Below, piece after piece: positions 3,056-24,003 of a stretch of 24,186 nt of DNA; the first letter of the stretch is position 1, and each line of letters starts with the position of its first letter. Made by a program: the position numbers and the translations under genes. The notes beneath the pieces are model-generated. The model was not told where the DNA came from, did no database searches, and was given only the letters and a program-made list of their open reading frames with translations. Source of the DNA: a virus; the IMG/VR virus record IMGVR_UViG_3300030333_002814, positions 1 through 24,186 of that record. One strand, written 5' to 3'.

Positions 3056-3333
3056 AAAAGATAAGTAAAAAATGTAAAGCGGGCATGAGGGTGCATGGCG
3101 GTCATGTTTGGGATATTAGAAAGGCATGGTATAACCACAGTATAACAGCCCCTATGAGATGGAAAGGGGAGAACTCTAATTCTTCAAGAATAGTAAGCGA
3201 AGTATTGCTTGAATGTATTGACTGTAAAGAATCATATTGGGTTAGGTATGAGTCTAAACCAATTGAGGACATGGTTAAGGATGAACATTTTTCCTATGAG
3301 GATGAAGATGTAAAAAATGAAGTGTATTCATAG
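3052..3333 (+). CDS. Small Cys/His protein, possible zinc-binding (93 aa)
   Basis: I do not recognise this protein. I chose ATG 3052 because it overlaps the polymerase stop codon as ATGA, the typical coupling pattern here; ATG 3046 in the same frame adds two residues and cannot be excluded. It has a basic N terminus (MKKISKKCK), a C8...H15xxH18 group followed by Trp, and a CIDC pair at 55-58, so a single zinc site is possible. The C terminus is acidic (YEDEDVKNE). Its end overlaps the next gene by 17 bases. It sits between DNA polymerase and a PAPS-reductase-like enzyme, as another small metal-site protein preceding an enzyme. Confidence 0.65.
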   Translation: MKKISKKCKAGMRVHGGHVWDIRKAWYNHSITAPMRWKGENSNSSRIVSEVLLECIDCKESYWVRYESKPIEDMVKDEHFSYEDEDVKNEVYS

Positions 3334-4138
3334 TGATTTTATGGTTGATTATATCGTTATGTATTCCGGCGGCCTTACTTCTTTTGAGGCCGCAAGACTT
3401 ACGATAGAAAAATACGGTAAAAGTAATATTAGGCTATGGTTTGCGGACACATTAACCGAAGATGAAGACCTTTACCGATTCAATAAAGATGTCGAACAAT
3501 ATCTCGGTGTTGAAATAGAGGTTCTATCAGAAGGAGAAAGTGTTTGGGATATTTTTTTCAAGCATAGATTTTTGGGCAATACGAGAGCCGACCCGTGTAG
3601 CAAATTTTTGAAACGGAATAGTATAAAGAAAAAACTAAAAGAAGAATACCCCGACCCAAAAGATGCAATAGTAGTATTAGGGATGGATGATATAGAGGAC
3701 TGTAATAGGTGGGAACGGGCGGCTAAAGCGCAAGAGCCATACGAAACCTATTTTCCCTTGATTGAGCAAGGGCCTATACTAAAAAGTGAAATAATAAACT
3801 TTTTAGAGGGTGTTGGGATAGATGCGCCCCGCCTATATAGTATGGGATTTACTCATAATAATTGCGGCGGCTTTTGTGTAAAAGCGGGCTTAGGGCAGTT
3901 CGCGCATCTATACGAAACAATGCCCGAAAGATACCTTTACCATGAAAATAAAGAGCAAGAATTTAGAGACTTTATAGAAAAAGATGTATCTATTTTGAGA
4001 GATAGAAGGGGTGGTAAGACTTCACCGCTAACTATGAAAGACTTGAGGCGAAGAATAGAAGATGGGGAGAAGTTCGATTATGACGCGGGTTGGACTTGTA
4101 TGTGTTTTGTTGATACTAACGATTTTTCGTGGTTATAG
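3317..4138 (+). CDS. PAPS reductase-like PP-loop ATPase family protein
   Basis: The N terminus carries a PP-loop, YSGGLTS (residues 16-22), of the adenine nucleotide alpha-hydrolase superfamily. It is followed by a segment typical of PAPS reductase/sulfotransferase-like proteins (WFADTLTEDEDLYRF, RADPCSKFLK and GMDDIEDCNRWERA). Such enzymes adenylate a substrate or bind an adenylated sulfur donor. Five cysteines could hold a metal site or carry sulfur: C94, C183 and C187 (CGGFC), and C261 and C263 (CMC). No separate reductase tail or thioredoxin motif is seen. Relatives are common in tailed phages with unknown role. Nucleic acid thiolation or base modification is a fair inference but unproven. 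The start may be ATG 3317 (used here, overlapping the previous gene) or ATG 3341, which puts the PP-loop closer to the N terminus as is usual. The superfamily call is firm, the reaction is not. Confidence 0.85.
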   Translation: MKCIHSDFMVDYIVMYSGGLTSFEAARLTIEKYGKSNIRLWFADTLTEDEDLYRFNKDVEQYLGVEIEVLSEGESVWDIFFKHRFLGNTRADPCSKFLKRNSIKKKLKEEYPDPKDAIVVLGMDDIEDCNRWERAAKAQEPYETYFPLIEQGPILKSEIINFLEGVGIDAPRLYSMGFTHNNCGGFCVKAGLGQFAHLYETMPERYLYHENKEQEFRDFIEKDVSILRDRRGGKTSPLTMKDLRRRIEDGEKFDYDAGWTCMCFVDTNDFSWL

Positions 4139-4173
4139 AATTATTTATATGCGTGATAATCTGAGGAGATATT

Positions 4174-4464
4174 ATGGCTAAGAAAGTGAATGCCGAAGAC
4201 TTTGAGATATTCGTTAGAGAAGTGGCGACAGCCCTTACTATGATAGGCGCGGATTTAGGGAAAATGCAAACGCTATTGTATGCAAGTCTAAATCAGCAAG
4301 GATTCATTAATGAGATGAAGTGCCCTCATTGTAAAGAAGAATTGATGATACCTACCTTGCCGGACATAGAGCAAAGCGATAAATGCCCTGCTTGCGGAGA
4401 GAATATTCACGAAGGCACACAGACAACCTTTGAAACATGGGATTCGGGCGGCGAAGAAGAATGA
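4174..4464 (+). CDS. Zinc ribbon protein with N-terminal helical part (96 aa)
   Basis: It starts at ATG 4174 behind a strong GAGGAG ribosome binding site with a 5-base spacer. The first 45 residues look helical and amphipathic (EDFEIFVREVATALTMIG). A zinc ribbon follows: CPHC at 50-53 and CPAC at 71-74. The acidic tail ends WDSGGEEE. A 35-base gap precedes it, one of the few gaps in this operon; it contains TTTATAT at 4144-4150, which may be a weak internal promoter. The stop codon overlaps the start of the nuclease gene as ATGA, so the two are translationally coupled. The function is unknown. A DNA- or protein-binding partner of the downstream nuclease is inferred only from linkage. Confidence 0.75.
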   Translation: MAKKVNAEDFEIFVREVATALTMIGADLGKMQTLLYASLNQQGFINEMKCPHCKEELMIPTLPDIEQSDKCPACGENIHEGTQTTFETWDSGGEEE

Positions 4465-6501: not shown

Positions 6502-6660
6502 ATGATGTCTTTACGCGAAATTAAAATAGAAGAAACAGCGGTTTGCGTTATGTGCAACCACAAATGGACTACTGAAAATGAAGTCGAGAAGTATTGTGGT
6601 AAATGTAAATCGCACATCGTAATCATACAGGATGAGGTCTATTACTCGCAGGGTTGGTAA
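6502..6660 (+). CDS. Small zinc ribbon protein (52 aa)
   Basis: It starts at ATG 6502 (or the adjacent ATG 6505), one base after the primase stop, with a clear AAGGAG ribosome binding site inside the end of the primase gene. Cysteines CVMC (C15, C18) and CGKC (C32, C35) lie 14 residues apart, a compact zinc ribbon. The C-terminal strand (SHIVIIQDEVYY) ends in an aromatic QGW tail. It immediately precedes the ERCC4 nuclease gene. Its role is unknown; this is the fifth small metal-site protein in this arm. Confidence 0.75.
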   Translation: MMSLREIKIEETAVCVMCNHKWTTENEVEKYCGKCKSHIVIIQDEVYYSQGW

Positions 6661-6695
6661 TACTCTTTAAGAAGGCTTCTCGTTGTCGTAGTTTT

Positions 6696-7400
6696 ATGCT
6701 ATTGATAGACGACCGCGAGAATGATAAGGTCATCAATAAATTACTCATGCGTATGGGTAAAGATGAGGTAAAAGTATGTCGGATGAAAGCGTCTGACTAT
6801 ACTATGGGAACATGGGGCATCGAGGCCAAAGAGATTAACGACCTGTATAGGTCTATCATGGGCTTCGGTCGCACACGAACTATCGTGGACCAATTGCATG
6901 ACCTGCAAGAGTCATGCGAGCATCCTTTCCTCGTTGTCTATGGAACTGAATTGAAGCCATACATTCCGGGCCAAAGACCCAACGCGAAGTTAATATCTGT
7001 CGAAATGGCCCGCATGAAAAAAGTAATCAAGCAGTTTAAGGCTGTATTCTATCAAAGATTTCCTAAAATTAAATACATGGAACTCACCACTATGGATGAG
7101 TTCGTGGAATGGCTCGTAGTCAATCATACACAGCAGGGCATAGCAAAAAGCCGCCTTGCATACGAACAACAGCAAGTTATAAAAAATGCTGATTTAGATT
7201 CAAGAATCCAACTTCTATCTTCTATCGAGGGTGTATCTGTTAATCAAGCCGAAGCCCTGTTAGAAAAGTTTGGTAGCATACCAAATATACTTAGAGGTAA
7301 AAGAACTCAAAAAGAATTGATGGATATAACAGGTATCAATCGCAGAAAAGCAAAAGCCATTTTATCTTTAAGAGAAAAATTAGTAGGGTTTGAATCTTGA
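6696..7400 (+). CDS. ERCC4 (XPF/Mus81-type) nuclease with HhH domain
   Basis: A structure-specific endonuclease of the XPF/Hef family, 234 residues. ATG 6696 begins right at the nuclease fold (MLLIDDREND). An upstream TTG at 6654 would overlap the previous gene. The DxRE motif is D5/R7/E8. The usual GDYxx...ERKxxxD signature appears as SDY (D34) and EAK...D (E43, K45, D49), so the Arg of ERK is replaced by Ala. GRTRTIVDQLHDL follows, as in the family. Residues 168-228 form a tandem helix-hairpin-helix domain (SSIEGVSVNQAEALLEKFG and ITGINRRKAKAIL) that binds branched or single-stranded DNA. There is no helicase domain, so it resembles the short archaeal XPF form. It probably resolves flaps or forks during viral replication. 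It is the last gene of the + strand arm and overlaps the convergent hub gene by 21 bases. Confidence 0.93.
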   Translation: MLLIDDRENDKVINKLLMRMGKDEVKVCRMKASDYTMGTWGIEAKEINDLYRSIMGFGRTRTIVDQLHDLQESCEHPFLVVYGTELKPYIPGQRPNAKLISVEMARMKKVIKQFKAVFYQRFPKIKYMELTTMDEFVEWLVVNHTQQGIAKSRLAYEQQQVIKNADLDSRIQLLSSIEGVSVNQAEALLEKFGSIPNILRGKRTQKELMDITGINRRKAKAILSLREKLVGFES

Positions 7401-10400
7401 TACGCCAGACCTTGTGTGCGCCGATGCTCTCTCTAAATTAACGCTTAAGTTATTTACAACTACACTTGAAGTGTTTGCGTCATCATCTCCTGTTCCGGCC
7501 TTACGAGTTACAGTTACAACAATAGTTCTGCCCGCAACACTACAACCCTTTAGAGATGTTGTCGGAATTAAACTTATTGGTTTGTTTTCTAACCCTGTTC
7601 CTATTTTAGTTGTGTGAGATACCGTATCGCCTGTTTCTTGTATTAACGCTGTAGTATATAATACCGCAGTAGTGTTACCGCCGATTTGAGGACTATGTGT
7701 TACATTTGCTTGTATGTGCATTCTTTCATTTAAAACATCCATTGGTATAGTAAAAGTAGTCTGTATAGTAGTTTCTTGCGAATCTGCCGCAACATCATTA
7801 CCCATCAGACCTTTACCACCAAAAATATAACCATCTGCTGATACTGCGGCTGTTCCACTAACCGCAGATATGTCCTCATTCATCCCTTCTATACCCCTTG
7901 AAGAATACGCAACAACAGAAGATGTTTCTTTTTGGCCTAAAACGGAGAGTGTCCCATCACCCGCCATAATATCTGCACCCAAAGACATACGATGTCTTTT
8001 TGGAAATCTGCCGTCAGATGGTGAAGGGTTAAACGGATGGTTTCCGTCTTCCTGTTGGTCGTTTTGGTTACTGTTGTCTGGGTCAAAATCACTATCGGGG
8101 TTATTTTCTGCTGGTGTTGTTTGTAAGCCGTTATCTTGATAAGAACCGCTACCACCACCTATAACAGAACCCATTGTATTAGAATCGGTTTTAGGGAAAA
8201 GATAAGTCATAAGACCCTGCCGCTCAAGGCCTTCATCCCGCTCTAATTCTAAATTAACATTTTCTGTCGAGCCCGCAGATACTTGATAATTAACATTTTT
8301 TATGCTTAATGTTTCTGCATTCATTTCTAAACCGGCATCTGTATAAGTTACAAAAGTTGCCGGAACATAAGAAAAATCGCGGCATATATGCACGCGAGGC
8401 GCATACCAAGTAACTCTTTCGTCTTTCCAAGCAGCACCCAAACTTAAATTACTACTACCCATTTCACTATAAACCCTTTTACCCAAAGGAAAAATAGTAT
8501 CGGTGTTTGTAGCGACACGCTTTAAAATATTACTACTACTCGGGTCGCCGCATCTGTGCCGCAACAATGCGCGGCAGTATTCTGCGTTAAATGATATTAC
8601 TATTTTAGCACCTGCTGGCGCACCATAATTTGTGGGTATTTCTATTTCGTAAAATCCACTATGTTTTACATCAGTTCCTTTTACATTATCACTTGCAGAA
8701 GTTGAGTTGTAAGTATCACTTGCTATTCTTCTCATAGCCGTGCCGCCATCTCCGCTACCAAAATGATAATCACCAAGATAAATTGAAAATTGGGCATCAT
8801 CAATTGTTGCGCCGCTATCCTGTGTTGATTTTAAATCAACCCATATTCTCATCGGTTCTCCTGTTAAATCACTAACAAACGGTGTTGAATTAGGTATATG
8901 AACTATTTGAACCGCATGAGAAATTGAGTTGCTACCATACCAATAGTAATTGTCCGCCCACGCTACATCACCCGAAGATGTTGTATTTTTTGATTGCCCG
9001 TATCTTGAGTTAAGGGGGTCTATATCTGTATTCATATTACCGTTAAGAGCATTTACCATGCCCGGAAATAAAGCGCCGCCTGTTCCGAGAACAGTCCAAT
9101 TACATACGCGCATATCTGCTTTTGAGGCCGTGTTATCAGCATTACCATTAAGGGCAATATATGGGTCTGCTATGTAGCCGTATCTGCCTGTTTCTATCAT
9201 TTTATGCTGTGTGCCGCTTTCAAGAATAGGCTCTATGGCTAATTTTAATGAATTATTTTTACGGCTATTATATTCTTGTTCGGCTATTTTAGTTGCTTCT
9301 TCGGTGCTGGCTACATCGGGATGTTCAATAATTTTCCATCGTGTGCTATCTCCTAAAGATGCAGAAGGATAATCAACAAAGTTTTTATGGTTATTGTAAT
9401 AAACTCTTATGTTTTGTATTTGCGCCGATAAATTAGCCGTAAGATTTGTAACACGGGTGTTGTTTCTATTGAAAGTTATCCCACTATTATATTTTGGCCT
9501 TAACTCTATTCTATTATCCCTACCCATTCTGTAAGTAAATGTAGTATAGTTGCTTTCCCCTTGACTTGCTTTTTGTTGTATAGCATTTAAAGTTGCGCCA
9601 AGAGTTTTACCCCTACTATCTGTTATTGAACCGTAGTAATCGTTACTGCTTGTATCGTTGTAAGTAGTCATGTGATTTGTAATTGGAACATTGTTAATGT
9701 CGAATATACAATTAACAGTTGCAGACGGTAGCCATGTGTCCATAATAGCAGCGTTCCAAAGCATACGCATTTTGTCGCTGGTCCAATAAGTTCCACTCGA
9801 TTTATTTTTGTAAAATCCATCAACATGAAGTAAAAGACGCAATAAATATGATGATGCGACCGTAGCATGAACTTCATAGGCTATGGGGTCATTAGTTCCT
9901 GTTCCATAAATTCCATGTGTTCCAAACGAAGTCCAAGAAGAAGAACCCGATTGAAACCTATTCCAAACTTCTTTTTCTGTTTCAGTAATTGATGCGGCGA
10001 TACTTTCTAAATATGTATCTATAGGAACTTCAAAAACCATAGCCAATTGGGGTAATATATCATAGGTGTCGCCACTCGACCATGTAACGGTTGTTCCATC
10101 TGTTGCCGTTCTTTCAATAGTAAGTTTTGTATCAGTATTCGCCCCGCTCGTATCACCTACGGCAAGAATATTATGGTAAGTTAAATCACCACCTCCATTT
10201 GGAGTTCTTTGTAAAACCATTCCCTTTTTAATTCCGCCAGCCGCGTGGTCTATTCCGCTTGTAGTAATTACATACACATTAACGCCTTCATAAGTTGTTG
10301 CGGATATAGTTCCGCTTATTCCGGTTGTATTGTTAAACTCGGTATCTAATTTACCATCCCACACAAAATATCTATCGTTATTATTACCGCCTTTATTATC

Positions 10401-13400
10401 GCGTTCATAAACAGTTACGAGTCGCCCTACGCCACTCTCCGCAAAGTTTTGTGTATTATCTAAAGGTAATCCTATACTACCGTTGATAAACCCATTAGTT
10501 GCTGTAGTTACATCAGATATTAAATGGTTTTGGTTTGGGTGTTGTCTAACTACCGTTCCGGTTGTTCCGTAAGATGCAATAGCCTCTCTCCAATAATTAT
10601 CAATAAGAGCAGGGAATCCTTCGTTTTCAACTATATAGTCGGTAAGGTCAGTTCTGCCCGCGCCAATTTGTCCGGTCTTACCATCATTTACAAAAGTATT
10701 TAGATTGAAAAATTTAGCACAATCAATTACTATTAAAGACCCTGCTTTGTTTTCCCAATCGTGAAGATAATCAAGTCTATGTGTTTCGCTACCACCAGCC
10801 GGATAAGCAATTACTCCACCATCATATCCTGTAGCGGCGGAAAAATCAGTCGTTGTAGTCATTTGATTACTAACATTACTTGTTATTTCGTGTATTCCAT
10901 CATGGGCTGTGCTACCTACTAAATGAACATAAGTGCCGTAGCCGCTTGAATCGCTTACCGCTATTCTTAATTTACCTCCGTTATCAGTAAGAGTAGCCGT
11001 GCTTGGGTTTGTGTAGTCCGGCGGTTTTGAAAGTGCGCTACCGGTTAAGGGGTCGGCGGTAGCATCCATATTCCATACTAAAAAGTCCTCTCCGTTTTGT
11101 AGTGTGCCGAACTTATCTAAATTACCGTCAGCATCTGTTTGGTCTGCAAAGTAAAGGTCAAAATTATAATTTTCTTCTATTGGGTATTGCAGACCAAATG
11201 ATGTTTTTCTTTCTGAGCCATCTGCGTTTGCCTCGCCGTTGTTTCTCATGTCGGACCAAAGAAGCCAAATGTGTTTATAATCATTATCTATATCTTGCAC
11301 TCGGAAATAGTATTGACGAGCACTTGTGTTATTATCGGTTGGATATGTTCCTTTGATATATTTAACGCCGGTCAAATAATAATCAGAAGATACCTGTTGC
11401 TTGCCTTGATAAATAAACTTTTCAAGATAAAAAGAGTTGGAGGAATCCCATCTATCAACATTGTTTCCACTACCGAAGGGTGGGTCCGAAGCCCATATTT
11501 CGACTATGCCGGAGTTTGGAAAATTCTCATAGGTCTTTTGATGTATTTTTATACTTTTAGTAGTAGGTGAAAGACTTACACCACCAACTGCGGTAGGTTT
11601 GCTGTAAATGCTATTGGTTACGCCCGCAGGTAAAGTATTATTAACATAATCATATTTAATTTTGCCGAAATGATATTGGAACCACAAAGACATAGGTAAA
11701 TCTCTCATCCAAGTTGCATGAACTGCTCGGTTTTGTATTGTTTGCGCTGTGTCTGATATAAAAACACCCTCAACATAGCCTGCGTCTTTACTCCAAGAAA
11801 ACCTTGAAGTTCCGTTTAAAAAAGAATCCGAAGCATATAACCCGTGTGATTCGGAACCACTATACGGGGTGCTTGTTTGAACAACCCAAAAATTACCAGC
11901 AGATGTAACTAAATTACTACCACCAACTGATGTGTAATCTTTTATTTTTCTTACTTGTGTTACTCTATGCCTAACACGATAAGCAGAATTTAAATCACCC
12001 GATGCCGCATCATTTCTTCTATTAATGTAAAAATAATCTCCTTCTTTTAGGCCGGGATTAGCAGTAAAAAACACATTCATATAGTGTGGTCCAGAACCAA
12101 CAGTATGTGCTGTTGATGGGCTACTTTGGTAATTATTATATAGATTTTCCCATGCTTGTTTCCACGCATTGTAAAATAATGTCCCACTTGGTCCATTATC
12201 CCATTTTCCATCATCGTTTTCTGCGCCACTAAAACCGGTATATTTTCCAATGTAAAATATTTTACTTGTTTCATCAAAGTTGCTATATGCAAGGTCGCTC
12301 GCATTAAAGGTTATTTCACCTGTTGTTCCATCAACTGCTGTAGCACTAATAGCACTTGTAGTAGCATAATTATCTGCTGTAATATGAATATTAGCAAAAT
12401 CACCTACTACTTTACCATGTGAAGCAACAGCAGGTATGGCTATAACCGTAGTAGCCGAACCTGTTGGTTCAGTAAAACCAAGAATACCAAAGTCGCCATA
12501 ATCCCTCTCAACATTATTTGGCCCGAAGTCATCTTCATTGTTATACATCTGTATAGCGTGCCCAGAACCTAATTGAGTTCTTTGGTCTGCTGATTCTTTA
12601 TGAGAATTTTCTGTATCAAAACCCATATTATTATCGAGTAATTTTAATTTACCAGCGCCAAGATTCATAATATCTCTAAAGCCCTGTGCGCCATAGGCCC
12701 AATAATCTGTAGGCTCTCCGTTACTGTCTTTTTCTTTTTGTCCTATATCCCAAAGAGGAAGTTGGCTGTCTAATTTTTCTATGGAATCTTTAGCAGACAA
12801 TGTTATAATTCTATCACGCCATTTTTGCTGTATGTTAAATGAATCAACAAAACCGCGCCAGACCGGCCTATCAATTCTTGCCGAACTATCAGCAAAAACA
12901 AGCAACGACCAATCAAGCGGAGTTGTGCTTACAAATAAACTTCTAAGATTTAATAAATAATCAGAAGACGAAGCACCTCTTACGCCGCCGGACAATTCAG
13001 CATCGTCTGCTATTTCAACTACACATGAAGATATACCATTTACGGGTTGTCTGATATTTAATTTTTGTATTTGTGTTTCCCTACTGTGTTCTAACCTATC
13101 TAATTCATCAGTAAGGTATCTCACAAGCCCTACTCTATCAAGCATAAGATAAGATACCCAACCTTCGTCATCAGTATTAGTAGCGTTATTTACTGTTATT
13201 TGATAACCATATAGATTTGATGCGGTAGTTGCACTATCAGAAGTTCCGTCAAGGTTTCCGTCAGTCATAGGTTGATTAGTTGAGTGTGAAGTTCCATTAA
13301 CATATACATCAAAAGTATTAGCGGTATAATCAAAAACAAAATCAACATCAATCCAAGCATTATCGTTATTATAAGATTGCACAAAAGCGCCGGAATTGTA

Positions 13401-14360
13401 AAGCAAACCTTCTTCGTCATAAGAAATTGCTGATAAATCTAAGTTGTAGTATATAGCGGGGGTTCCTGTGTAACCACCATCACTAAGAATACCTGCCTCG
13501 CTTGTTGGAAAACCTATTTCAAATAAAACTCTTGTATCATCCCATGCAGCATTTTCTGCTTTCATAGTTCTTACGGCTATTCTTGCCGTAAAAACATCTC
13601 CGTCAAGGCGTGTATTAAGAGGACCGTCATAAATTATAGTAGGGGTTGTAGCAGAATCGCTTTCGGATTTTCTCGATGACTGCACACATAAAAACGGCAT
13701 ACCCGATGGCGACTTAACTTCTGCATAAATTGAACGGGGAAAATTAGAAGTGGTGCTTTGTTGTAGTTGTTCGCCGGTCCAAACACCAGCAAGATGTGCC
13801 CGTTGCACGAAATCTCCTGTTGTTGAAATTAAACCTGCCTCTTTATTTCCAAAATTAGTATTTGTGTAATCTTTCATGTTAGCATGACCGAAGGTAGCGT
13901 CATTATCTCCTGTGGGCACGATGTAAGAAGCATCGCTATTATGTCCGTTGATAAACCGTTGGTAAAAATCGCTACCATAAGTTGAATCGTTATCGAACTT
14001 ATATCGGTTTGCTATATGCCCATCGGGATATTGCAGTTGGGCTCTCCCCGCCCAATTATAACTATCAAGCCTAATACTATCAAACGATAACCACTCAAAA
14101 ATACCATCATTTTTTAATTTAAGATTACTACTTGATGCGACTTGCTTTGCTGAGTCGTTTTCTCTTTCTTCTATTGAAAATCTAAAACGCGGATTAAGAA
14201 ATGCCTCCCCATTCATCGGATTTCCAAAGTGGCTTTTCGTAGCGGTAAATGTTACATCGCTTGGTTGGTCGAGAGCATCTGCTATGGCTCTCGCCCCGTT
14301 GAAATCATCGTAATAGCCCGCAAGCCATATCTGATATTTCTTCTCAACGGTTCTTACCAT
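7380..14360 (-). CDS. Giant tail hub / receptor-binding protein (2326 aa)
   Basis: It starts at ATG 14360 with the ribosome binding site GGGTGAT, 9 bases after the tape measure gene. Position after the tape measure protein and beta-rich, Asn/Ser/Thr/Gly-rich composition mark it as a tail tip protein. Roughly: residues 210-410 look like a LamG/concanavalin-type jelly roll (FDVYVNGTSHS). Residues 420-540 resemble a baseplate-hub module (VVEIADDAEL, PVWRGFVDSF). Residues 1540-1740 resemble the second half of a hub, with an EATKIAEQEYNSRKNNSLKL helix and a strand ending GRYGYIADPYI. About 1000 beta-rich residues lie between the two halves. An Asp/Asn-rich linker (about 2080-2110, possibly calcium binding) leads to a C-terminal beta-sandwich (2130-2326), a plausible host-receptor binding end. 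No lysozyme or peptidase motif was recognised. The general role is well supported by context; domain limits are approximate. Confidence 0.8.
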   Translation of the reverse strand: MVRTVEKKYQIWLAGYYDDFNGARAIADALDQPSDVTFTATKSHFGNPMNGEAFLNPRFRFSIEERENDSAKQVASSSNLKLKNDGIFEWLSFDSIRLDSYNWAGRAQLQYPDGHIANRYKFDNDSTYGSDFYQRFINGHNSDASYIVPTGDNDATFGHANMKDYTNTNFGNKEAGLISTTGDFVQRAHLAGVWTGEQLQQSTTSNFPRSIYAEVKSPSGMPFLCVQSSRKSESDSATTPTIIYDGPLNTRLDGDVFTARIAVRTMKAENAAWDDTRVLFEIGFPTSEAGILSDGGYTGTPAIYYNLDLSAISYDEEGLLYNSGAFVQSYNNDNAWIDVDFVFDYTANTFDVYVNGTSHSTNQPMTDGNLDGTSDSATTASNLYGYQITVNNATNTDDEGWVSYLMLDRVGLVRYLTDELDRLEHSRETQIQKLNIRQPVNGISSCVVEIADDAELSGGVRGASSSDYLLNLRSLFVSTTPLDWSLLVFADSSARIDRPVWRGFVDSFNIQQKWRDRIITLSAKDSIEKLDSQLPLWDIGQKEKDSNGEPTDYWAYGAQGFRDIMNLGAGKLKLLDNNMGFDTENSHKESADQRTQLGSGHAIQMYNNEDDFGPNNVERDYGDFGILGFTEPTGSATTVIAIPAVASHGKVVGDFANIHITADNYATTSAISATAVDGTTGEITFNASDLAYSNFDETSKIFYIGKYTGFSGAENDDGKWDNGPSGTLFYNAWKQAWENLYNNYQSSPSTAHTVGSGPHYMNVFFTANPGLKEGDYFYINRRNDAASGDLNSAYRVRHRVTQVRKIKDYTSVGGSNLVTSAGNFWVVQTSTPYSGSESHGLYASDSFLNGTSRFSWSKDAGYVEGVFISDTAQTIQNRAVHATWMRDLPMSLWFQYHFGKIKYDYVNNTLPAGVTNSIYSKPTAVGGVSLSPTTKSIKIHQKTYENFPNSGIVEIWASDPPFGSGNNVDRWDSSNSFYLEKFIYQGKQQVSSDYYLTGVKYIKGTYPTDNNTSARQYYFRVQDIDNDYKHIWLLWSDMRNNGEANADGSERKTSFGLQYPIEENYNFDLYFADQTDADGNLDKFGTLQNGEDFLVWNMDATADPLTGSALSKPPDYTNPSTATLTDNGGKLRIAVSDSSGYGTYVHLVGSTAHDGIHEITSNVSNQMTTTTDFSAATGYDGGVIAYPAGGSETHRLDYLHDWENKAGSLIVIDCAKFFNLNTFVNDGKTGQIGAGRTDLTDYIVENEGFPALIDNYWREAIASYGTTGTVVRQHPNQNHLISDVTTATNGFINGSIGLPLDNTQNFAESGVGRLVTVYERDNKGGNNNDRYFVWDGKLDTEFNNTTGISGTISATTYEGVNVYVITTSGIDHAAGGIKKGMVLQRTPNGGGDLTYHNILAVGDTSGANTDTKLTIERTATDGTTVTWSSGDTYDILPQLAMVFEVPIDTYLESIAASITETEKEVWNRFQSGSSSWTSFGTHGIYGTGTNDPIAYEVHATVASSYLLRLLLHVDGFYKNKSSGTYWTSDKMRMLWNAAIMDTWLPSATVNCIFDINNVPITNHMTTYNDTSSNDYYGSITDSRGKTLGATLNAIQQKASQGESNYTTFTYRMGRDNRIELRPKYNSGITFNRNNTRVTNLTANLSAQIQNIRVYYNNHKNFVDYPSASLGDSTRWKIIEHPDVASTEEATKIAEQEYNSRKNNSLKLAIEPILESGTQHKMIETGRYGYIADPYIALNGNADNTASKADMRVCNWTVLGTGGALFPGMVNALNGNMNTDIDPLNSRYGQSKNTTSSGDVAWADNYYWYGSNSISHAVQIVHIPNSTPFVSDLTGEPMRIWVDLKSTQDSGATIDDAQFSIYLGDYHFGSGDGGTAMRRIASDTYNSTSASDNVKGTDVKHSGFYEIEIPTNYGAPAGAKIVISFNAEYCRALLRHRCGDPSSSNILKRVATNTDTIFPLGKRVYSEMGSSNLSLGAAWKDERVTWYAPRVHICRDFSYVPATFVTYTDAGLEMNAETLSIKNVNYQVSAGSTENVNLELERDEGLERQGLMTYLFPKTDSNTMGSVIGGGSGSYQDNGLQTTPAENNPDSDFDPDNSNQNDQQEDGNHPFNPSPSDGRFPKRHRMSLGADIMAGDGTLSVLGQKETSSVVAYSSRGIEGMNEDISAVSGTAAVSADGYIFGGKGLMGNDVAADSQETTIQTTFTIPMDVLNERMHIQANVTHSPQIGGNTTAVLYTTALIQETGDTVSHTTKIGTGLENKPISLIPTTSLKGCSVAGRTIVVTVTRKAGTGDDDANTSSVVVNNLSVNLERASAHTRSGVSRFKPY

Positions 14361-14369
14361 TTAATCACC

Positions 14370-17300
14370 CTAAGCATTCATTTTGTAACCAAGAGAATAG
14401 CCCCTGTATTCTATTTCTTCTATTATTTGGTCGGCCATCTCCGGTATAGTCAAACCATTAAATACATTAGTCATAACTACTTCGGTGTTTGTTATTAGGT
14501 TTTCGACCCCTTGTTGTTGAACTTGTCTAATTAAATTACCCGTAAGTTTACTTGCACTACCACCAAAGAATAATTCTTCTCTTGCGTTATTAAACTCTTG
14601 CATTTCTTCTGTTGCATCACTAAAAGAATCCGCTACTGCGTTAGCAGAATCTTCTGCTGTGCCCGCTATCATAGTTGCGGAACGGGTATTAAAATCCTCT
14701 AATTCTTCTAAAGTATTTATACCCGTTCTTTTTACAAACTCGGCTGTTTCTTTATTTGCGTCTTTCCAATCATTTAAAGCAAAAATAGCGTCTTGAACTG
14801 CCGCTTCTCCGTCTGTCGGCAAATCGCCAGCAAAAAATCTTGTCCAAAAACTTTCGCTATCGTAAAGAGCCTGTGCTTCTTGGCTTTGTTTTGTTAGTTT
14901 ATCTAATTCTGCGATAGTGTTTTTAACTGCGTCAGTTTGCGCTAATTCGACATCTCTTGCATTTATTAAATCATTTTTTCTTTGAACTGCTGCATCGTGT
15001 TGCTCTTTAGCCAATCCTTGCGTAGCATCCTTTGTTTGCTCTATAATTTTTTCTTGCTCTCTTAATTCATTATTTATTTGGCCCAAAGTCATATCTTCAT
15101 ATATTTTTGCTACATTATCTAAGTTTGTTATAGCGGCTGTTGTTTCGTCTATACTTGATGCGGTATCTTTAAATGCGCCAGCAACGAGATAAGCAAGACC
15201 TGCTAAGATAGCCATACCACCTGCGGTAACTACAGTTAATGCCGCTGCAAAGGAAATTGATGCTGCCGTAGCAAGTTTTGTAGCAAGAGTATATTGTAGT
15301 TTAGCAATAATACCCATTTCTTGCATCATGTTATTTCTAATTTGAGCAGCAGTTTGTGCTTCAGTTGCTACCACTTCATTAAGAGTTGCTGCGAACTTTA
15401 TCATACTTGCTTTCGCCGACTCAATAAGTTTTACTATTTGAAGCGCTACCGCAACTCCGTTTAATAACATACCGGCTCTTTGCATTCTTTCATTATTTCT
15501 AAACAACATCATAGCCATACCGGCCCCGCTAAGAGCAATACTAAGATTGTTATATGCTTTTGCACTTTGTGTTATTCCTTTCACTCTTAATTCCTGTGCT
15601 TGGGCTTCTTCTTCACTTAATCTTATTTCGGCTGCACCAAACCTTCTTTTGTCTTCATGGATTTTATCGAGTATGTCTTGCTCTTGTTTTTTTACCGCTA
15701 TAACTTTTCTTGTGGCTTCATCTTCTGCGTTAAGAGCCCTTGTGTTAGCGCCTCGTTGTCCTCTTAATCTTTTTTCCGCAGCAGATAACTCATCAGTTGC
15801 GAGTTTTTCTTCTTCCTTTGCCCGCTTTGCTGCTCTTACTGCAACAATATATTGATTTCCCATTTGACCTCTTGCTGCCGCTTGTTCTGCTTTTGCAGAT
15901 TCTGCCGCCCTTCTTTTTTCTTCGGCCACCGCCTGTAAAGCATTAACTTCTTCTTGAAGATTTATAGTCCTTTCTTCTGTGGCTAATGCTTCGCCCGCCC
16001 TTTTACTTTGAAGTTCCTCCAATACTTGCTTTTCTTCTCTTAAAGCATCTCTTTTTTCCATCAACGCAAGTATTTCTTTTCTTACTTCTGCTTGTGCTTC
16101 TCTTGTTGTTGGTATATCTTGTGTTTCTCTAAACAATGTGTTTAAAGTATGCTCTTTATTTACTTCGTGTAATGCGTTTGAATACAAACCATATAGGTGT
16201 ATGGATTCTTGCAGTTGCCCGTATTGATTTGTATATGCCGCTGTTCCAGATGTAGTAGCGGCCTTTGCCGCTTCTTGAATAGCCGTTAGTGTTTGTATTG
16301 CTATACCCATATTAAAAATACTTAGCATAAAATTACTCATAGGACCCATAGCAACTTTCATTAGAATAGATGTTTGGCTAAAGAAATCAAGTAAAATACC
16401 TAATGCCCGATTATCTGATGCTTGGGTTAATGTATCATAAAAAACAATTTGTAAATCAACACCGGCTTTCATGTCGTCTATCATAGTTTCTCCAAATGCC
16501 GCTTGATAGTTTCTTAATTTCTTTTCTGCTTGCTCTAATTGGAACAGTTCGGTATCACGCCTTCTTTCTATTTCTTCCATAGCAGGGAACATACCTGTTA
16601 GTGCTTCTTCCTCAAGTTCTCTTACCCTATCAACATTTTCAAGCAACTTAATTAGACGGGTATAGTGTCTATTTCCGGCAACAGCCTGTGCAAGTTGCTG
16701 TTGTTCTGCACCTTCTAAGGTTTGATACCTCGCCGCCAATTCTTCTAATATATCACTAAACGGCCTCATAGCCCCTGTTTCTGTATCTATAACACTAATA
16801 CCGAGTTTTTCTATAGTAGTTCTTGCGCCGTTAGTATCAGCACCAAGACGAGCATATATCATACGAAGCGCACGACCACCCTTACCCTGTTCTTCTCCGG
16901 CCTCAATCAATGTAGCCGACATAGCAGCCATCGCAGCAATACTTTCACCCGTTAGGTGAGCCTGTGAGGCAAACTGATTCATAACATAGGTTATTTGTTG
17001 CATTGTAGCCGCAGACCGGTTTTCAACTGTGTTAAGTTCGTCAAGAACTCTTATAGAATTAGACCGCATTATATTAAGGCGTTCCTGTTGATTCGCGGCA
17101 TTTTCAGTTCCTTGAGTCATAAACTTAGTTTGCTGTTGTAAGTTAATTAGTCGTTGCATGGCTTCTTCTGTTTCCATACCGCTTATCAAACCAAACTGCA
17201 TACCAATTTCAGTTCCAAGAGGAGTAGTTCCTTGACCGAGAGTTCCCGCCAATTGAGCCATTCTTGCGGATGCTTCATAGGCTTCATCTGCGGCAAAACC

Positions 17301-17675
17301 ATATCTCAAACCTATTTCTGATATGCTTTCAAACACTTCGGGGCTTCTTTCGGCTTCTGCAAGGAACTTATCAAACTGTATTCTTGCTTCTTCAATTTCA
17401 CGCGCTATAGGAACAGTAGCCTCGACTACTTCCCCGAAAATATCGGCTATTTCCGTTGCTGATTCTTGAATAGAAGTAAAGGCATCAAGATAAATTGCTT
17501 CAAGAACTGTTGCGGACCCTTCGGCATCTTTAATCATTCTATTTGCTTGAAAAACACCGACTATATCGAAGAAAACTCTTGACGCACCTGCACGGAGAAC
17601 TACCATCGCTACCGCGCAGGCAAACATTACGAGAGGAGTAAATGTAAGAGAAGGAACTAATATTTCACTTATCAT
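14370..17675 (-). CDS. Tail tape measure protein (TP901-like)
   Basis: A 1101-residue protein that sets tail length and is held in the tail tube until DNA ejection. I chose ATG 17675 because a GGAGAGGG ribosome binding site lies just upstream; a GTG at 17690 in the same frame is less likely. A hydrophobic segment is near the N terminus (about 10-28). Residues 70-400 carry the TP901 tape measure core: GMETEEAMQRL, a GEEQGKGGRALRMIYARLG stretch near 250-280, then FSDILEELAARYQ and AVAGNRHYTRLI. A long Glu/Arg/Ala-rich coiled coil follows (about 525-680), then hydrophobic segments near 710-730 and 808-835 that may cross the host membrane during ejection. The gene overlaps the end of the chaperone T reading frame by 11 bases. 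The family match is strong. Confidence 0.93.
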   Translation of the reverse strand: MISEILVPSLTFTPLVMFACAVAMVVLRAGASRVFFDIVGVFQANRMIKDAEGSATVLEAIYLDAFTSIQESATEIADIFGEVVEATVPIAREIEEARIQFDKFLAEAERSPEVFESISEIGLRYGFAADEAYEASARMAQLAGTLGQGTTPLGTEIGMQFGLISGMETEEAMQRLINLQQQTKFMTQGTENAANQQERLNIMRSNSIRVLDELNTVENRSAATMQQITYVMNQFASQAHLTGESIAAMAAMSATLIEAGEEQGKGGRALRMIYARLGADTNGARTTIEKLGISVIDTETGAMRPFSDILEELAARYQTLEGAEQQQLAQAVAGNRHYTRLIKLLENVDRVRELEEEALTGMFPAMEEIERRRDTELFQLEQAEKKLRNYQAAFGETMIDDMKAGVDLQIVFYDTLTQASDNRALGILLDFFSQTSILMKVAMGPMSNFMLSIFNMGIAIQTLTAIQEAAKAATTSGTAAYTNQYGQLQESIHLYGLYSNALHEVNKEHTLNTLFRETQDIPTTREAQAEVRKEILALMEKRDALREEKQVLEELQSKRAGEALATEERTINLQEEVNALQAVAEEKRRAAESAKAEQAAARGQMGNQYIVAVRAAKRAKEEEKLATDELSAAEKRLRGQRGANTRALNAEDEATRKVIAVKKQEQDILDKIHEDKRRFGAAEIRLSEEEAQAQELRVKGITQSAKAYNNLSIALSGAGMAMMLFRNNERMQRAGMLLNGVAVALQIVKLIESAKASMIKFAATLNEVVATEAQTAAQIRNNMMQEMGIIAKLQYTLATKLATAASISFAAALTVVTAGGMAILAGLAYLVAGAFKDTASSIDETTAAITNLDNVAKIYEDMTLGQINNELREQEKIIEQTKDATQGLAKEQHDAAVQRKNDLINARDVELAQTDAVKNTIAELDKLTKQSQEAQALYDSESFWTRFFAGDLPTDGEAAVQDAIFALNDWKDANKETAEFVKRTGINTLEELEDFNTRSATMIAGTAEDSANAVADSFSDATEEMQEFNNAREELFFGGSASKLTGNLIRQVQQQGVENLITNTEVVMTNVFNGLTIPEMADQIIEEIEYRGYSLGYKMNA

Positions 17676-17976
17676 CGCTTCCCTCTCCACTATCGGCCCT
17701 CACAAACGGGACCCCGCTCTCTCTCAACATATCCACTATTTCACTATTGTTTGATAATAGTTTGCGTTGCTCTCGCCGTTGATTGCGGCGGGCAACTGCG
17801 CCCTTAGCATCTTTTTTAGATGCTTTAGAAGTTGCTTCGGATATTTTGTCGTTGATTTCAGCGGCCATTAGTAAGTCTAATTCCATTAGACGGCGACCGC
17901 CCTCAACAGAATATTTTAGCCATAAATCTGACGGTAATGTTCCCTTAAAGGCCATACACAGGCTCGGTGCGACCAT
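17665..17976 (-). CDS. Tail assembly chaperone, T-like part (frameshift-extended)
   Basis: A 103-codon frame that starts at ATG 17976, overlapping the stop of the previous gene as TAATG. The N-terminal part (FKGTLPSDLWLKYSVEGGRR) is followed by a helix rich in Leu and Met, then a basic Lys/Arg/Gln stretch and a Ser/Gly/Asp tail. It corresponds to the T part of the G/GT chaperone system of long-tailed phages, in which a -1 frameshift joins G and T into one protein that recruits the tape measure protein. The frame lines up exactly with a -1 shift at CCCTTTT 17988-17994, giving a G-T product of about 239 residues. Independent initiation at ATG 17976 is also possible. No homology to a specific T protein is claimed beyond position, size and frame. 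Confidence 0.8.
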   Translation of the reverse strand: MVAPSLCMAFKGTLPSDLWLKYSVEGGRRLMELDLLMAAEINDKISEATSKASKKDAKGAVARRNQRREQRKLLSNNSEIVDMLRESGVPFVRADSGEGSDDK

Positions 17977-18383
17977 TAGGAACTCAGAAAAGGGACTGCG
18001 CCCTCCTCATCATCGCCACGCACAAAGTTTAGAATGCGTGTAAGTTCATCAAATGTAAGTGTGTTCGGGTCTATATTTTCATCAAGAATACAGGCTGGAA
18101 CCCACTCGTTTATTTGGTCTTCCATGCTACCGCCCATTTCATCAATATGTGAGGCGAACTCCTCGTTTTGCTCATCGGTCCAATCAGCAGGGTCGCCAGC
18201 GTGCCGCATCTTGCGGAATGCTTTACCTTGAATATTCGTGATTCGGAGGCGTTCCATTCCAGACGCTTGCCTAACCCAAATCTTTGTTCCATCATCTAAT
18301 TCTATTTCTTTCTTCATAACCGGCATGGTTTTCACTCTCGCTCTAATATAAGGCACGCCTTGTGGCCTTATTAAAGATTTCAT
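17976..18383 (-). CDS. Tail assembly chaperone, G-like
   Basis: A 135-residue protein that starts at ATG 18383, coupled to the previous stop by an ATGA overlap. A strand-rich N terminus (KKEIELDDGTKIWVRQASG) is followed by a helical, acidic part (WTDEQNEEFASHIDEMGG and LTFDELTRILNFVRGDD). This is the usual look of the short tail assembly chaperone encoded between tail tube and tape measure genes. These proteins bind the tape measure protein before tube assembly and do not enter the virion. Its last codons contain the CCCTTTT slippery heptamer, so some ribosomes should shift -1 into the next frame. The role rests on gene order, size and frameshift architecture, which agree. Confidence 0.85.
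   Translation of the reverse strand: MKSLIRPQGVPYIRARVKTMPVMKKEIELDDGTKIWVRQASGMERLRITNIQGKAFRKMRHAGDPADWTDEQNEEFASHIDEMGGSMEDQINEWVPACILDENIDPNTLTFDELTRILNFVRGDDEEGAVPFLSS
17988..17994 (-). promoter_or_regulatory. Predicted -1 ribosomal frameshift slippery site CCCTTTT
   Basis: On the minus strand the heptamer CCCTTTT lies in the G-like chaperone frame as C CCT TTT, the exact X XXY YYZ arrangement needed for simultaneous -1 slippage. It sits 9 bases before the zero-frame stop codon. After the shift the ribosome reads Ser-Glu-Phe-Leu and enters the downstream T-like frame at its ATG. This mirrors the conserved G/GT frameshift in long-tailed phages. I did not identify a convincing downstream stem or pseudoknot by eye, so efficiency is unknown. 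Confidence 0.75.
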
Positions 18384-18589
18384 TCATCTTCTTCGGTCTT
18401 TACGGGCTTTGGTTTTTCAACCTTTGGTGCGACCTTTTTTGGTGCAGCCTTTGGTGCAGCCTTAGTAGCCGTAGGGAATCTTCGGCAATAATATAGAACC
18501 TGTTGCTTAGTTTTCATACCAGCAATAGTTTCCATAGCCTCATCCGGTATATCCTTACCGAGAGATTTTGCTAACTCGACTAAATCCAT
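18380..18589 (-). CDS. Small Lys/Pro/Ala-tailed protein (69 aa)
   Basis: It starts at ATG 18589 after a GGCGATT ribosome binding site, 9 bases behind the tail tube gene. The first 40 residues form a short helical domain (MDLVELAKSLGKDIPDEAM, then a helix with YYCRRF). The rest is a low-complexity Lys/Pro/Ala tail ending in acidic residues. I recognise no family. Small proteins between tail tube and chaperone genes may be minor tail proteins or assembly factors; this one lies in a coupled run (ATGA overlap with the next gene), so it is probably expressed together with the chaperones. Confidence 0.7.
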   Translation of the reverse strand: MDLVELAKSLGKDIPDEAMETIAGMKTKQQVLYYCRRFPTATKAAPKAAPKKVAPKVEKPKPVKTEEDE

Positions 18590-18598
18590 TTAATCGCC

Positions 18599-19636
18599 TC
18601 AGTAAGCAGATGTTCCGGCTGCGCCGCCCTTCATTTCAATTCTCATAGCCGCGTCTGCGCCGCTTGCGGTTGCATCGTAAAGACCTACAAATCCAACACT
18701 CATAGTGTTTGTATCACGACCGCTTACAGAAGCAGTTGGTGCTTCAAATCTTACATGATAAAACTTAACCTTTACGTATGTTGAGTCATCTGCTGTTTCG
18801 TCTTGAAGATATAATATAATTGTTGGCTCATCTGCACCATCCGAATAACTTAGACCGTCTGCGGCAATTAGAGCATCATAATCCGGCTCATCAAGGGTTT
18901 GGTCGCCGTAAAGAACGGTGTTAAACTCGATTGTTCCGGTAATTTCCCTGCGCTGTGCAGGTGGTGCGCGTGTGTATGTGGAGTTTCCAAGACCATAAGC
19001 ATTATCTGTATCTCGGTTTAGATTTATTTCAAAACTAAATGATTTAACGCTTGCCGATGCCGCAGGTGCTGAACCGGAACCGTCATCGAAAAGAATTGTT
19101 CCGTTAGCAAAGTAAAGAGCATCTTGAGCATCGCCGTCATAAGAAAAACTCGTTTGAAGTGCGCTTGTTGAACTTTCAGATTTTCCTACGTAGTCAGCAG
19201 AAAGCATAACATATTCGCCTACATTAGCGGTCATGCTAAGACGAGAGCCTACCATACCTGTGTATGTATGTTCTTTTTGTTCCCTACCTACTCTAATAGT
19301 ATAAGAATTGTATGTGTGAGATGATGTAGTCGGCTCTTTAAAAGCGTGGCCTCCGCTAACATTGGTGTCGTAATTAGTATCGGGGAAGAAAGCACCAAAA
19401 ATATTACCTACGAAATCATCCACCTGCAAGGCCATATTAAGTCCGCCTTCTGAATATTCCGTGCCGGTTACGCTCTTTGAAGCAACTTCTCGGCTCATAT
19501 CCTGTCGTGTTAGCAAGTCATAATTGTGTTGGAAAGATTCGTCATCAACTTCACCAAAAAGTTGCGTGCCGCTCGGCTCGGTTCCGTATGTTGATTCTTT
19601 TTCCAATGAAACATATCTATTTAGAAACTCAACCAT
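18599..19636 (-). CDS. Major tail tube protein
   Basis: A 345-residue protein that starts at ATG 19636 after an AGAGGTG ribosome binding site. The N terminus (FLNRYVSLEKESTYGTEPSG) followed by a DDESFQ...LTRQDMSRE stretch is typical of phage tail tube proteins, which begin with a strand, an early 'ESTYGT' type turn and a beta-barrel. The middle part is rich in beta strands, and RAPPAQRREITGTIEFNT is also typical of this group. It would stack as hexameric rings to build the tail tube. It lies between the tail terminator and the chaperone genes, where the tube gene is expected, and a TATA-like element at 19678-19683 could give it extra transcription. The fold call rests on pattern and gene order. 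Confidence 0.85.
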   Translation of the reverse strand: MVEFLNRYVSLEKESTYGTEPSGTQLFGEVDDESFQHNYDLLTRQDMSREVASKSVTGTEYSEGGLNMALQVDDFVGNIFGAFFPDTNYDTNVSGGHAFKEPTTSSHTYNSYTIRVGREQKEHTYTGMVGSRLSMTANVGEYVMLSADYVGKSESSTSALQTSFSYDGDAQDALYFANGTILFDDGSGSAPAASASVKSFSFEINLNRDTDNAYGLGNSTYTRAPPAQRREITGTIEFNTVLYGDQTLDEPDYDALIAADGLSYSDGADEPTIILYLQDETADDSTYVKVKFYHVRFEAPTASVSGRDTNTMSVGFVGLYDATASGADAAMRIEMKGGAAGTSAY

Positions 19637-23439: not shown

Positions 23440-24003
23440 TCATCGCCAGCGTGGGCCTTCAAACCATGCTACGAGGCTCGTTCTTGAGCCCGAAGTAATA
23501 GCAGACACGCCATGTTCTAAATATGACGGAAAGCAGATAATAGACCCGCGCTTTATCAAACTATCGGGGTCTGGATTCTGTGTGTGTGCAAACGATAATA
23601 AACCACCTTCGTAATCATCGGGGTCGGTCAGTTGCACGACAATACTCAACTTTCTGTGCTTGCCGTCTTGCCTGTTCCAATCTATATCGTGGTGCATTCC
23701 GTAGTGGTGTCCTACATCTGCATACTCGGTAAATTGTAGCGGTGGTAAATCTGTAAGGGTAAGGTTAAATTGTTTGTTAGCATCCATAGCAACCTTCATT
23801 AAAAAGTCGTGCATCTCGGAGTATGGACCAACATTAGGAAGCCACCTAATGTCTGTTTTGCGGTGAGCATCAGACTCACCTTCACCTGTTCTGAATGTTT
23901 TTGCCTCTTGTTTTGGTGCTTGTCGGCCTAATTCAATCCAACGCTCGCAATCTTCTTCACTAAGGACTCCTTCGTATAGTAACCAATTTGGGTGTTCCAT
24001 CAT
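23440..24003 (-). CDS. 2OG-Fe(II) oxygenase, prolyl hydroxylase-like
   Basis: A 187-residue dioxygenase of the prolyl-4-hydroxylase/PKHD type that uses iron and 2-oxoglutarate. The iron site YxxHxD is Y101, H104, D106 (in YGMHHDIDWN). The distal ligand is H164 (SYLEHGV), and R174 ten residues later binds 2-oxoglutarate. The core strands LSIVVQLTDPDDYEGGLLSF and the RGSIICFPS segment are typical. It starts at ATG 24003 (or 24000), without a ribosome binding site but 20 bases after a TATA box, so it is probably leaderless. The substrate is unknown. Such genes are frequent in marine viruses near structural genes; hydroxylation of a virion or host protein is an inference. The family call is strong. 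Confidence 0.92.
   Translation of the reverse strand: MMEHPNWLLYEGVLSEEDCERWIELGRQAPKQEAKTFRTGEGESDAHRKTDIRWLPNVGPYSEMHDFLMKVAMDANKQFNLTLTDLPPLQFTEYADVGHHYGMHHDIDWNRQDGKHRKLSIVVQLTDPDDYEGGLLSFAHTQNPDPDSLIKRGSIICFPSYLEHGVSAITSGSRTSLVAWFEGPRWR

Follow-up and report, generated by a model that had tools for sequence, protein, structure and literature searches.

A predicted -1 frameshift site, kept by selection and occasionally rebuilt, at the junction of the tail chaperone genes G and T in tailed viruses probably infecting marine archaea

How is the second of two overlapping tail assembly chaperone genes translated in a tailed virus that probably infects archaea: through a -1 ribosomal frameshift that fuses it to the first gene, or from a start codon of its own? 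The question arises at the junction of the G-like and T-like genes in a stretch of 24,186 nucleotides (IMG/VR record IMGVR_UViG_3300030333_002814, positions 1 to 24,186; hereafter the window). The original prediction, made from this one sequence, had placed a slippery heptamer at the end of G and had added that a TAATG overlap might let re-initiation supply a third product.

The genes concerned lie on the minus strand. The tail tube gene (18599 to 19636; Pfam Phage_tube_2, 3.1e-18; PHROG minor tail protein) is followed by an ORF for a Lys/Ala/Pro-rich small protein of 69 aa (18380-18589), then by G and T, and then by the tape measure gene (14370 to 17690; PhageMin_Tail, 7e-21; PHROG tape measure, 2.9e-22). 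G (17976 to 18383) was recognized from the ORF list, its HMM relatives and an AlphaFold model; its longest ORF has 135 aa from 18383, and the start that is conserved in the family is the ATG at 18326 (MPVMKKEIEL, 116 aa). The end of G reads GAG GGC GCA GTC CCT TTT CTG AGT TCC TAATGG. As originally claimed, C_CCT_TTT (17988 to 17994) stands here in the slippery frame, 9 nt before the G stop (TAA, 17978-17976), and it is the sole X_XXY_YYZ heptamer in the G frame. The -1 frame, which is open without an ATG from 18006, does run straight into T and continues as the T ORF (17665 to 17976, with its ATG at 17976 and its stop at 17665), the gene being delineated by alignment and a predicted helix. Between the heptamer and the T ATG (17977 to 17987) the zero frame encodes L-S-S-stop and the -1 frame S-E-F-L. 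The last A of the G stop is shared with the T ATG, giving the TAATG overlap (17974 to 17978) of stop and possible re-initiation codon. (Note that the 69-aa ORF contains a second candidate, A_AAA_AAG at 18440, which was rejected because its -1 frame hits stops before G and it thus cannot fuse.) Beyond the tape measure gene, a late gene of 2326 aa (7380-14360, minus strand) has no Pfam match and ends where the replication genes of the opposite strand end; it perhaps encodes a baseplate or fibre protein.

A heptamer of this kind in a single genome is weak evidence. Approximately 0.055 such heptamers are expected per 8 codons in late genes, and one appears with a chance of about 13% when synonymous codons are redrawn. 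Since one site is expected by chance in 5-13% of such gene ends, relatives must decide. Scans of IMG/VR with an HMM returned 268 loci with G, comprising 100 distinct junctions. The overlapping T is in the -1 frame relative to G in 99 of these 100 loci and in the +1 frame in the remaining one; a relative of the tail tube gene lies upstream of the site in all 93 loci that reach far enough, and the tape measure gene lies downstream in all 77 that do. Window and relatives alike thus have what typifies a G/GT arrangement: a pair of small overlapping ORFs flanked by the tail tube and tape measure genes, and a slippery sequence near the end of G that leads into T. Conservation of heptamer and frame in related contigs had been proposed as a check, and CCCTTTN is present exactly, and in frame, in 77 of the 100 distinct loci (CCCTTTG in 46, CCCTTTT in 16 and CCCTTTA in 15). 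The others comprise a T_TTT_TTG clade (11 loci), A/G/T_CCT_TTT or CATTTT junctions (11 loci) and the single +1 case.

We compared codon choice at the heptamer in 39 representatives (less than 75% identity) with the codon usage of the same genes. The first base, X, is C in 33 of the 39 (5.3 expected), the proline codon is CCT in 34 of 34 (12.5 expected) and the next codon is TTT, TTA or TTG in all 39 (21 expected); the corresponding p-values of 4e-23, 2e-15 and 2e-11 treat the 39 representatives as independent and are to that extent optimistic. Moreover, among the 61 CCCTTT[AG] loci X changes 0 times, compared with 11-14 changes at neighbouring third positions. Judged from these comparisons, selection maintains the slip site in about 100 related sequences, where it has now and then been rebuilt.

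The window itself belongs to a clade of 27 loci that retain CCTTTT or CATTTT. Here X changes 11 times versus 7-10 times for its neighbours, the first heptamer base being as variable as neutral sites, and 11 of the 27 loci are without a canonical heptamer (A/G/T_CCT_TTT or CATTTT). In every locus without a canonical X, Z is T, and the Phe tRNA can therefore re-pair perfectly on UUU. Because the first base of the heptamer is no longer conserved in this clade, slippage there would probably occur mainly on the U_UUU part, with the Phe codon re-pairing on UUU, and may possibly involve one tRNA, in the P site; one-tRNA and two-tRNA routes have both been described (PMC8211752). That all of the Z = T loci fall in one clade means that they reflect one evolutionary event and not many. 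The alternative reading, in which the acquired ATG of T relaxed the site, fits the conserved -1 frame described below less well.

CATTTT replaces CCTTTT in L019 and L029, and in L029, which is also without the T ATG, T_TTT is the only obvious slip site left. In the T_TTT_TTG clade (L161, L169, L251-L255, L260-L262 and L266), this sequence replaces CCCTTT three bases downstream, and the -1 register of the fusion is unchanged. The exceptional +1 locus (L170, IMGVR_UViG_3300025110_000229, positions 4001-4400; also L281) has T in the +1 frame of G, and its junction TCC_TTT_CGT_TGA restores the motif F-V-E-F-L-Q-V-A-P. This locus seems to use +1 slippage at TCC_TTT_CGT, although it is a single contig in which an assembly error is possible; a pattern scan for further +1 sites returned six contigs, only one of which encodes G/T. 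As predicted from sequence, CCCTTTT, ACCTTTT, CATTTT, TTTTTTG and TCCTTTCGT should all be sites that yield the fusion. It is conceivable that these sites record one family in which the signal was rebuilt several times and the fusion was kept, with the CCCTTTR double slip giving way to a U_UUU single-tRNA slip, and with T_TTT_TTG and the +1 site UCC_UUU_CGU as further forms; we hold this history tentatively, at a little short of even odds.

The protein encoded across the junction provides a separate line of evidence. Among relatives the G stop lies 0, 3, 6, 9, 12 or 15 nt after the heptamer. Despite this moving stop, the T core motif F-x-x-F-[LIF]-x-VAPSLCMAFKG, which begins 5' of the window's ATG, is gapless and keeps a fixed register from the slip site, and the predicted junction S-E-F-L coincides with this conserved -1-frame segment. 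Parsimony assigns 18 changes to the stretch from heptamer to stop in the 40 loci spaced like the window; 14 of them hit third positions of the -1 frame (p = 1.4e-4) and only 2 hit third positions of the zero frame. Within the window's clade, -1 third positions take 9 of the 11 changes that precede the stop (p = 1.4e-3) and 19 of the 22 that precede the ATG (M) slot. The signal is weaker in the CCCTTT[AG] loci overall, where 39, 29 and 53 changes fall on -1 phases 1, 2 and 3, respectively (53 of 121 on phase 3). On these counts the segment from heptamer to T is under selection in the -1 frame.

Could T nevertheless be started from its own ATG? At the slot that it occupies in the window, an ATG is found in 24 of the 27 loci of the window's clade and in 1 of the 61 CCCTTT[AG] loci, in which the slot otherwise reads AGA, CGA, CAA and similar; within the clade it has been lost three times. 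By this distribution, TAATG is derived, a late addition of the window's clade. The overlap is thus present as originally claimed, but re-initiation at it, being derived and lost three times, could be at most a dispensable supplement. Outside the clade T almost never has a start codon at the junction, and fusion is therefore the simplest route to its synthesis.

In the window's clade alone, the G-T fusion might be accompanied by free T made through re-initiation. This proposal is a rider on the frameshift reading and does not exclude it; the retention of the ATG in most of the clade speaks in its favour. We nonetheless consider it doubtful, given that M, I, L and R are all accepted at this slot of the -1-frame protein, that the three losses occurred without other damage, and that no Shine-Dalgarno-like sequence is found at a normal distance from the T ATG of the window.

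Far less probable is that termination-reinitiation at TAATG or TGATG supplies most of T as a protein of its own, with the heptamer as a leftover. An ATG that overlaps the stop in 24 of the 27 loci, in the very clade whose first heptamer base is free, would fit such a scheme. However, the codons 5' of the ATG are under selection in the -1 frame (the 19 of 22 changes noted above), a conserved motif and a predicted helix (residues 2-15) both start upstream of the ATG and extend across it (T model pLDDT 73.5, middling), and nearly all CCCTTT[AG] relatives are without it. In addition, the losses of the ATG include L190 and L029, neither of which has a canonical heptamer; as they have no ATG, a slip is needed in these two loci if T is made from its conserved N-terminus. 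(Note that many loci have another ATG deeper in T, and that a start there would drop the conserved motif.) The original prediction had taken relatives with both genes intact and no slippery heptamer to count against frameshifting. Such relatives exist, namely the 11 of 27 loci of the window's clade, yet the loss of the exact heptamer does not mean that the fusion was lost there, since the -1 frame 5' of the ATG is still conserved and L190 and L029 have no ATG from which to start. The last alternative, that the overlap reflects compact gene packing and shared coding constraint with no recoding, could appeal to the 5-13% chance of an in-frame heptamer near a gene end in a single genome, but is hardly tenable, as the comparative data already contradict it: T is without a junction start codon in almost all relatives outside the clade, three consecutive codons depart strongly from codon usage, and conservation in the -1 frame extends from the slip site onwards.

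With the junction anatomy, its conservation and the selection on its -1 frame observed as described, we consider it very likely (about 0.92) that this tailed virus, whose hosts are probably marine archaea, has a lambda-type G/GT arrangement with programmed -1 ribosomal frameshifting. We infer the slippage itself, its efficiency and the chaperone roles as follows. Most ribosomes would read G to its stop and produce the short chaperone gpG; on CCCUUUU a minority would step back by one nucleotide and translate on in the T frame, yielding a G-T fusion of approximately 220 aa when measured from the conserved start. If the analogy with lambda applies, G would bind the tape measure protein, and the fusion would recruit tail tube subunits through its T part.

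Candidate stimulators of slippage were sought on both sides of the site. Upstream, the window has a Shine-Dalgarno-like stretch, GAGGAGGG (18001 to 18008, minus strand), 6 nt 5' of the heptamer. GAGGG-like sequence at this distance, counted as Shine-Dalgarno-like 4-mers, occurs in 28 of the 39 representatives versus a background of 8%, and the upstream Glu codon is GAG in 18 of 29 cases (p = 0.001). This stretch may stimulate slippage, or may merely reflect a conserved Glu-Gly. Downstream, no convincing hairpin or pseudoknot was found; windows just 3' of the heptamer are only mildly stable (the best mean z is about -0.85), and the lowest values come from windows that include the site itself.

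The identity of G as a chaperone is suggested, not conclusively, by its predicted fold. Its AlphaFold model (pLDDT 91.7) has as nearest named viral models (Foldseek, BFVD) mycobacteriophage tail assembly chaperones, with a probability of up to 0.97 and a weak E of about 0.02. HK97 gp13 can be superimposed on the G model over 81 residues, nearly the full length of gp13, with an rmsd of 4.2 A, at a Z of 4.5 that is tied with unrelated chains. By sequence, G and T have no reliable PHROG or Pfam family and no match above chance, and neither G nor the tail tube protein has a match in 50,697 annotated phage records. No relative was found among solved structures (the best hits were sigma factors, at E 0.13 or worse, which we take as chance), and scans of 84,980 prokaryote genomes (A1 or A2 queries) found no relatives and no provirus or host contig.

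What, then, is the host? The window encodes a Hef/XPF-type nuclease (ERCC4 + HHH; 6654 to 7400, plus strand; ERCC4 4.3e-9; Hef nuclease model 7.1e-17, below the curated cut-off). Of 15 long relatives, 12 have ERCC4; in a control set of 14 genomes it was confined to the four archaea. Through ERCC4/Hef these viruses thus carry an archaeo-eukaryotic information gene that among prokaryotes is specific to archaea, as is characteristic of an archaeal virus. Among the matches listed for polymerase B the best are haloviruses, at 22-25% identity. A GroEL-like chaperonin is found in 6 of the 15 long relatives (including L274 and L273), and PCNA in none of the 15. The window also has a PAPS reductase-like (CysH) gene (3317-4138, plus strand) and a 2OG-Fe(II) oxygenase gene (23440-24003, minus strand), both of which are listed as auxiliary genes of magroviruses. 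On gene content, the host is probably archaeal and marine; Poseidoniales would be a guess. The G/GT arrangement, the -1 direction and, as probable, the archaeal-virus setting of the original prediction are upheld.

Gene content permits comparison with described marine viruses. Magroviruses have genes for a family B polymerase, GroEL, CysH and a 2OG-Fe(II) oxygenase (PMC10768690, PMC10160649), and the chaperonin, CysH and oxygenase genes seen here fit that content, a likeness drawn from their description only. Among the marine tailed viruses of Poseidoniales (PMC10768690, PMC10160649, PMC13108676), the Aoguangviridae map shows a tail assembly chaperone, and the text of PMC10160649 makes no mention of frameshifting; unlike the 15 long relatives, aoguangvirids carry PCNA. 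We note, finally, that the HVTV-1 record (KC117377, genes 129/130) joins two chaperone ORFs at a site that we read as G_GGA_AAG, and that its G and T have no profile similarity to those of the marine family.

The slip site of lambda is GGGAAAG, whereas that of the present family is CCCTTTN, in viruses of a probable archaeal host. The conserved tail-assembly frameshift of long-tailed phages is that of Xu, Hendrix and Duda 2004, as cited in PMC7911831 and PMC5009743. In haloarchaeal viruses, frameshifted tail chaperones have been described for HVTV-1, HCTV-1, -2 and -5 (-1) and for HSTV-2 (+1) (PMC5009743, PMC8211752). The -1 viruses of this group resemble the window in being archaeal tailed viruses with the frameshift upstream of the tape measure gene, and HVTV-1 also encodes a Hef nuclease. 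Hardycor1 likewise has a -1 X_XXY_YYZ site upstream of the tape measure gene of an archaeal virus, but the site is G_GGA_AAT and the virus an isolated halovirus; one further relative of it is named with G_GGA_AAG (PMC7911831). The HF1-group haloviruses, with +1 TTT-CGC, resemble L170 only, the window and 98 other loci being -1; TTT-CGN is the +1 motif cited for them, and UCC_UUU_CGU is cited in influenza A (PMC7230728).

Frameshifted archaeal tail chaperones are thus of a known kind, to which our analysis adds a new and large marine family whose sites differ from those described and whose history can be read. Demonstrated cases of archaeal frameshifting are scarce (PMC8211752 lists a single cellular gene along with a few viruses of haloarchaea), and the present family contributes about 100 distinct marine sequences with a conserved site, its variants, and a record of which bases selection holds where. 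There is a use for annotation as well: T mostly has no junction start codon in these genomes, and automated gene calling will probably put it in the wrong place. The variants also make a testable prediction, that the X of X_XXY_YYZ is dispensable when Z permits perfect re-pairing. If the signal was indeed rebuilt as proposed, the slippage rules of archaeal ribosomes would be readable from natural variation.
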